The notes beneath the pieces were generated by a model. The model had not been told where the DNA came from, made no database searches, and worked only from the letters and a program-made list of their open reading frames with translations. The translations under genes were made by a program, and so were the position numbers. 64,000 bases of DNA from Thermodesulfobacteriota bacterium. GTDB taxonomy: Bacteria; Desulfobacterota; BSN033; UBA1163. The stretch covers positions 1-64,000 of the forward strand of contig JAOAHX010000017.1 in assembly GCA_026415035.1 (NCBI GenBank), given 5' to 3'. Positions within the stretch are counted from its first letter, which is position 1. Each line of letters begins with the position of its first letter. Shown one piece after another: positions 51,426 through 51,649 of the stretch.

Positions 51426-51454
51426 TTGACAGATGAGGAGCCTCCCTTTACAAT
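51426..51454 (+). promoter_or_regulatory. Near-consensus sigma-70-type promoter of a short unit
   Basis: TTGACA (51426-51431), exactly 17 bp, TACAAT (51449-51454). It is the best -35 match in the window with a 5/6 -10. Transcription would begin near 51461 and meet a terminator at 51585-51614, giving an RNA of about 155 nt. It points away from the aor gene. Confidence 0.75.
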
Positions 51455-51481
51455 GAACTCTAAGAAAAGGAGGTGAGGTCC

Positions 51482-51544
51482 ATGAGATGGCTGTTCCCCC
51501 ACGCGACCCATTGCTCGACCTGCGGCTCAATGCGTTGGTCCTGA
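51482..51544 (+). CDS. Putative 20-residue CxxC peptide
   Basis: An ORF of 20 codons starting with ATG at 51482, 8 bases after GGAGG in AAAAGGAGGTGA, which is nearly the full complement of the 16S rRNA 3' end. The peptide reads MRWLFPHATH then CSTCGSMRWS, with a CxxC motif and MRW at both ends. A second ORF in another frame starts 5 bases later (51487-51555, 22 codons, PRDPLLDLRLNAL in its middle) with poorer spacing; I cannot decide which, or whether both, are translated. Promoter, ribosome-binding site and terminator surround it exactly. No family recognised; it could be a peptide product, a leader peptide, or a small RNA with incidental ORFs. Confidence 0.4.
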   Translation: MRWLFPHATHCSTCGSMRWS

Positions 51545-51584
51545 GCATGACGTAAAACTGCTCACCGGACAATCTACATTCTTT

Positions 51585-51614
51585 AAAAGGCCGGTAGAGG
51601 ATGCCGGCCTTTTT
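51585..51614 (+). terminator. Intrinsic terminator of the short unit
   Basis: AAAAGGCCGG (51585-51594) pairs with CCGGCCTTTT (51604-51613) around a 9-nt loop. The GC core is six base pairs, and the T-run of five (51610-51614) forms the end of the stem. It lies between the short ORF and the next promoter at 51621. Confidence 0.8.
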
Positions 51615-51620
51615 GTTGCC

Positions 51621-51649
51621 TTGACAGAATCGTCCGTAATTTTTATGAT
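51621..51649 (+). promoter_or_regulatory. Promoter of the cupin-MFS unit
   Basis: TTGACA (51621-51626), exactly 17 bp, TATGAT (51644-51649). The start would be near 51656, 26 bases before the cupin ATG. It begins only 7 bases after the terminator of the short unit, so the two units are insulated. With the other elements it accounts for most of the 348-bp gap 51334-51681; the first ~90 bp of the gap should hold the aor promoter, for which I saw only a weak candidate. Confidence 0.75.

Follow-up and report, generated by a model that had tools for sequence, protein, structure and literature searches.

Between aor, the gene of a tungstopterin aldehyde oxidoreductase, and a cupin gene of a Thermodesulfobacteriota bacterium lie 190 bp that an initial annotation, made from the letters alone, took for a self-contained transcription unit expressing a very short peptide or a small RNA. 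The locus, part of a 64,000-nucleotide stretch of DNA (the window), raises the question of whether so small a unit is a gene at all and, if it is, whether the peptide, the RNA or both together do its work. We report an unannotated gene family whose amino acids are conserved between phyla, and an RNA pseudoknot, widespread in phages and bacteria, that is absent from Rfam. Together they point to an undescribed control of ribosomes or RNA decay.

The unit and its neighbours

The promoter, Shine-Dalgarno sequence, 20-codon ORF and terminator were all found where the initial annotation had placed them, as was a clean promoter belonging to the cupin gene, and it was right that annotation pipelines overlook the unit. 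The features of the locus are as follows.

51426..51454, + strand: sigma-70-type promoter, TTGACA (51426-51431) and TACAAT (51449-51454) at 17 nt spacing, 11/12 consensus matches
51465..51476, + strand: very strong Shine-Dalgarno sequence AAAAGGAGGTGA, its core AGGAGGTGAGG nearly invariant within the family
51482..51544, + strand: 20-codon ORF MRWLFPHATHCSTCGSMRWS with its stop, the translated frame; 56/70 substitutions among the 17 family copies fall at third codon positions
51482..51529, + strand: codons 1-16, under amino-acid constraint across phyla; consensus MKRFM[VIL]PRVAHCSEGC, with a variant in the window's family
51538..51564, + strand: H-type pseudoknot, from covariation; model R1 matches in 60 genomes
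51585..51614, + strand: intrinsic terminator, GC-rich hairpin and T-run, from sequence and folding
51621..51649, + strand: separate promoter of the cupin gene, TTGACA/TATGAT, outside the unit

A promoter scan of the 2.2-kb region returned 2 promoter-like sites against 0.5 expected. The automatic terminator scan missed the hairpin at 51585-51614, probably because the A-tract and T-tract lengthen its stem, and the whole unit RNA folded by itself is weakly unusual (z = -1.8). A Shine-Dalgarno sequence is also present in copies from other families.

With a 108-bp probe, one strong copy per genome was recovered from all 17 genomes of the window's family (85-100% identity), and no comparable copy was found elsewhere in the window's class; one genome carries an additional 21-nt partial match. 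TTGACA stands about 17 nt before an AT-rich -10 element in all 16 family copies with enough upstream sequence. Given this conservation of copy and promoter, the unit is more than chance at the level of sequence. A multi-copy repeat or mobile element is ruled out, as the genome that holds the window carries the unit once.

The surroundings are far less constant. aor adjoins 4/17 family copies and a cupin gene adjoins 7-8/17, once convergently, and some cupin genes of the family have no unit upstream. Thus, we regard the unit as an independent gene, and the link to aor and cupin that its position in the window had suggested as incidental. The expectation of conservation in close relatives is borne out even though these neighbours differ, and retention of the promoter among changing neighbours upholds the view of an independent, strongly signalled small transcription unit.

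The ORF and the pseudoknot at its end

Translation of the first-frame ORF is proven by the substitution pattern: across the 17 family copies 64% of distinct changes in that frame are synonymous against 21% expected, whereas in the two remaining frames the shares are 21% and 18%, with 28% and 25% expected. A second ORF, proposed in another frame, is therefore unsupported. In 68 sequences from outside the family, diversity at G15 is 0 at the first two codon positions and 0.59 at the third, and C12 and H11 behave alike, with near-invariant first and second positions and a free third. Codons 17-19 are unconstrained, stops included, and coding constraint ends at codon 16. The conserved Cys remarked on earlier is genuine; the CxxC motif drawn around it proved incomplete, being only the form that HC-x2-GC, a wider motif, takes in the window's family. 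Nor is 'MRW at each end' a feature, since the C-terminal residues vary and can be removed by a stop (L040, L372, L382). NCBIfam gave no match to the peptide, and Pfam only sub-threshold zinc-ribbon matches (zf-ChsH2, 17.6 bits against a cut-off of 23.2, one peptide only).

The initial annotation missed the most conserved part of the unit, and the most informative: a pseudoknot located at the stop codon. In the window it reads GUC-C-[UGAGCA]-U-GAC-GUAAAAC-[UGCUCA] and overlaps the ORF end: GUC (51538-51540) pairs with GAC (51549-51551) as the first helix, UGAGCA (51542-51547) pairs with UGCUCA (51559-51564) as the second stem, GUAAAAC is the spacer, and the second stem opens with the three bases of the stop codon UGA. 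The invariant piece 3' of the ORF across copies is GUC-C-[UGAGCA]-N-GAC-RYNAAAC-[UGCUCA], and the RNA 3' of the pseudoknot shows no conservation. The 6-bp stem covaries (UGAGC/GCUCA, UGGGC/GCCCA, UGGAC/GUCCA). For the 3-bp helix, counts of fixed sequence variants in viral contigs show compensated pairs to be common (GUC:GAC at least 120, GCC:GGC 114, GAC:GUC at least 120) and mismatched ones nearly absent (GCC:GAC 1, GUC:GGC 0, GAC:GAC 0). From this strong covariation we conclude that the H-type pseudoknot is real. Rfam, at its thresholds, gave no match at the unit.

The pseudoknot starts 8 nt after codon 16. Outside the window's family this distance is constant and the position of the stop ranges from -8 to +31 from the pseudoknot start; an extended Cys-rich peptide, HCSCCSEGGC (L383:1528-1632), preserves the GC-to-pseudoknot distance. 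The register is not absolute, because the order of Cys and Gly in the window's family is shifted against the pseudoknot (HCSTCGS, not HCSEGC).

Occurrence in bacteria and phages

Copies outside the family were recovered first with a pattern describing the hairpin that follows the ORF and then with covariance model R1, which matches 60/395 genomes of the phylum, about 58 of them convincing on inspection. (E-values of R1 and of a second model, R2, are rough.) The module MKRFMxPRVAHCSEGC-xxxS thus occurs in about 58/395 genomes of the phylum, and also in Actinomycetota, Omnitrophota and Gemmatimonadota; the peptide has the consensus MKRFM[VIL]PR[VIT]AHCSEGC with a free tail behind it. Bacteria of Desulfomonile type are among the carriers (L133, L145). 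Among the matches listed from 85,000 species genomes are Actinomycetes, Acidimicrobiia, Thermoleophilia, Omnitrophota and one Gemmatimonadetes-labelled genome. Judged by sequence, the 20-codon gene occurs in at least four phyla. Abundances from these collection scans are lower bounds, and, as many loci are metagenome-assembled, single labels (for example Portnoybacteria, L132) may be mis-binned. Carriers found beyond the phylum have one copy in 8/9 cases and two in the ninth. Terminator-like hairpins accompany 37/81 copies against 17/405 shuffled controls, and a few copies (L355, L359, L375, L382) lead straight into a gene.

Several loci have individual traits. In three Actinomycetota loci (L094, L097, L180) the tiny gene follows shortly after an ArsR-type regulator gene, recognised by eye, with C-terminal Cys residues, which hints at a metal input; a neighbour protein in L139 resembles mercuric reductase, again by eye. 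A second GTCCTGAGCA immediately follows the first pseudoknot in two Actinomycetota loci (L097 about 1380-1420, L108:5088-5125). The pseudoknot stands without the ORF beside a CcsA-like cytochrome c biogenesis gene in three deltaproteobacterial loci (L085, L104, L116; recognised by eye), with a heavy-metal P-type ATPase gene, also identified by eye, as the other neighbour in L104. One bacterial genome of the phylum (G046, L070:1500) has the hairpin with GTCC and no HC peptide upstream.

Without the peptide, the pseudoknot is common in phages. Among the phage copies listed, the upstream gene runs in the same direction as the pseudoknot in 101/122 and the downstream gene does so in 107/123. Three independent variant sets place its start mostly 6-7 nt after a stop codon and almost never closer, so that a terminating ribosome would abut the pseudoknot in nearly the same geometry as in the bacterial module. 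In Streptococcus, thermophilic D6E, Stenotrophomonas, Leuconostoc and Staphylococcus phages it lies just 5' of annotated scaffold/capsid genes or an equivalent gene pair; GP20/DUF4355 neighbours were recognised by eye. ORF-less copies also sit in the gap ahead of the scaffold and major capsid genes of phages in Paenibacillus loci (L088, L100, L121, L124, L127) and in named phages (L317-L319, L322, L323), and other phage copies stand directly 5' of tRNA genes (L254:356-463, L457:1361-1458, L316, L320). L254 also contains a sub-threshold manA RNA (50.0 bits against 55.2). The ORF module gave no tblastn match in phages or plasmids, and the peptide-plus-pseudoknot pattern had none in viral contigs. 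A phage or plasmid origin of the module is rejected on these grounds, and its distribution indicates that ORF and pseudoknot together are cellular.

Possible function and known systems

The comparisons above establish an independent transcript, translated codons 1-16, a real pseudoknot and an ORF that runs into it. Our best reading, to which we give a probability of about 0.4, is that a translated ORF, acting as a sensor or arrest peptide, stands in a fixed register to the pseudoknot, which serves as a mechanical roadblock, with the stability of the transcript or of a 3' fragment as output. As the ORF runs into the pseudoknot, a ribosome finishing it must either unfold the pseudoknot or stop against it. 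With codon 16 in the P site, by ribosome geometry some 11 nt would separate it from the pseudoknot, which would then sit at the mRNA entrance. We infer that the ribosome pauses in this position, aided by a 16-residue nascent chain whose His-Cys...Gly-Cys/His ligands would lie wholly inside the exit tunnel. The ORF would then be an arrest or sensor peptide deciding whether the pseudoknot is folded, with charged tRNA, metal and redox state as candidate inputs. Once folded, the pseudoknot would block comers from the 5' side, be they ribosome, exonuclease or Rho, and the stability of the unit transcript or its 3' fragment would change; this output is the weakest step. The fixed ORF-pseudoknot register renders such ribosome gating directly testable.

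Family-wide conservation and a promoter conserved among changing neighbours support gating at the level of sequence, as do a coding constraint that stops at codon 16 and the fixed distance from that codon to the pseudoknot outside the window's family. By analogy, support also comes from the phage pseudoknot 6-7 nt after a stop codon and from the blocking activities of coremin, a plant-virus motif, and of flaviviral RNA. Against gating stand the want of a conserved target gene downstream, which known arrest-peptide systems possess, the HCSTCGS shift in the window's family and the pattern of RNase J. No convincing canonical RNase J was found in the window's family and, among 395 genomes of the phylum, the enzyme is present in 30/58 carriers and 185/337 non-carriers (p = 0.67). 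Dependence on RNase J predicts that carriers have it; as there is no association, the bacterial module does not appear to depend on RNase J, and a ribosome or Rho may be the motor that arrives from the 5' side.

A functional free peptide is another possible source of the coding constraint, and the main rival, possible though we lean against it, is an ordinary tiny protein gene whose product is a 16-29-residue peptide with His/Cys ligands (metal- or thiol-binding, for example), the pseudoknot merely stabilising or insulating the mRNA. Strong amino-acid constraint with synonymous change, the strong Shine-Dalgarno sequence, the invariant His and Cys ligands and the ArsR-type and mercuric-reductase-like neighbours seen by eye all fit such a gene. 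However, it leaves the fixed register to the pseudoknot unexplained, the constraint stops abruptly at codon 16 before a tail free in both sequence and length, and the protein family searches returned nothing above threshold. We consider it improbable that the unit is mainly non-coding, with 5'-to-3' decay or processing halting at the pseudoknot to leave a stable, coremin-like pseudoknot-terminator RNA of 70-80 nt and with ORF translation serving only for timing. The helix and spacer identical to coremin, and a terminator close behind in about half of the copies, speak for this product, but the RNA downstream of the pseudoknot is unconserved, codons 1-16 are under protein-level selection, and RNase J, the canonical 5'-3' exonuclease, is missing in the window's family and unassociated in the phylum.

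The remaining explanations fare worse still. That the unit leads or attenuates the cupin gene, or regulates the divergent aor gene, is refuted as a general role and very unlikely: adjacency in the window is the attraction of this reading, but the cupin gene has its own promoter after the terminator, and the neighbours change within the family as described above. Selenocysteine incorporation or another recoding of the stop, with UGA decoded and the hairpin acting as a SECIS element, is mostly refuted, and we leave it scarcely any weight. As in a bacterial SECIS, a conserved hairpin contains an in-frame UGA; here, however, neither that codon nor the frame past it is conserved. Many homologues, including some outside the window's family, carry sense codons in place of UGA (UGG, CGG or CGA) or have an earlier stop, and the third codon of the downstream frame, UGA in the window copy, starts with any base.

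Among arrest and sensor leader peptides, the copper-responsive CruR uORF is, like the ORF of our unit, a short translated ORF with Cys ligands, and in our unit the amino acids of the nascent chain are conserved near the putative pause site, as in arrest peptides. For CruR, translation itself is reported to be the regulatory signal (PMC9426467). The unit differs in being a stand-alone transcript with a pseudoknot in fixed register and no fixed downstream gene; no regulated gene was found downstream in the same transcript, where the terminator intervenes and the neighbours change.

The nearest known RNA family is GP20-b (Rfam RF03003), whose GuC...GgC...gUAAAAg aligns to the helix and loop of the pseudoknot, and phage copies of the pseudoknot likewise lie 5' of scaffold (GP20-type) genes. 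The best GP20-b match in the whole genome that holds the window is this hairpin, at 16.9 bits against a gathering cut-off of 36.2. There was no match at 17 other loci, nor at a phage pseudoknot copy even at E <= 10, and the bacterial module differs in including an ORF. Membership of a known RNA family is thus rejected, its nearest candidate being below threshold.

The closest mechanical parallel is coremin, GUCCGAAGACGUUAAACUAC, an Xrn1-resistant plant-virus motif at which, in vitro, Xrn1 stalls and scanning ribosomes are blocked (PMC10520033). Coremin, or xrRNA-C, occurs in benyviruses and cucumoviruses (PMC10520033, PMC5869530) and in two plant viruses has a stop codon within or overlapping it. 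In vitro, bacterial RNase J1 is stopped by a flaviviral RNA that resists exonucleases (PMC5760640). Coremin and our pseudoknot share the 5' helix GUC:GAC, replaceable here too by other Watson-Crick pairs, the C after GUC and a length of 26-30 nt, and the coremin spacer GUUAAAC gives the modal base at each position of phage GUC:GAC copies (GUAAAAC in the window copy). They differ in that our loop, C-[UGAGCA]-N, base-pairs and departs from the coremin loop rule YGAD/YGNNAD (PMC10520033), and in that coremin has a separate hairpin 2, whereas here the sequence 3' of the spacer folds back to pair with the loop, over up to 6 bp. Ours also occurs in bacteria and DNA phages, has no link to RNase J, and blocks exonucleases only putatively. 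An incomplete literature search found no report of coremin from either phages or bacteria. Should the pseudoknot prove to be a roadblock on the 5' side, bacteria and DNA phages would, so far as found here, have their first coremin-like RNA, with consequences for our picture of how capsid and tRNA cistrons are protected or insulated in phages. We tentatively propose a coremin-like new class of small mechanical pseudoknot, used between genes by phages of many bacterial groups and coupled in cells of at least four phyla to a conserved 16-codon sensing ORF, which together may form a stand-alone ribosome-gated RNA switch. Because the loop rule and the second hairpin differ, we say that the pseudoknot may work like coremin, and not that it is one.
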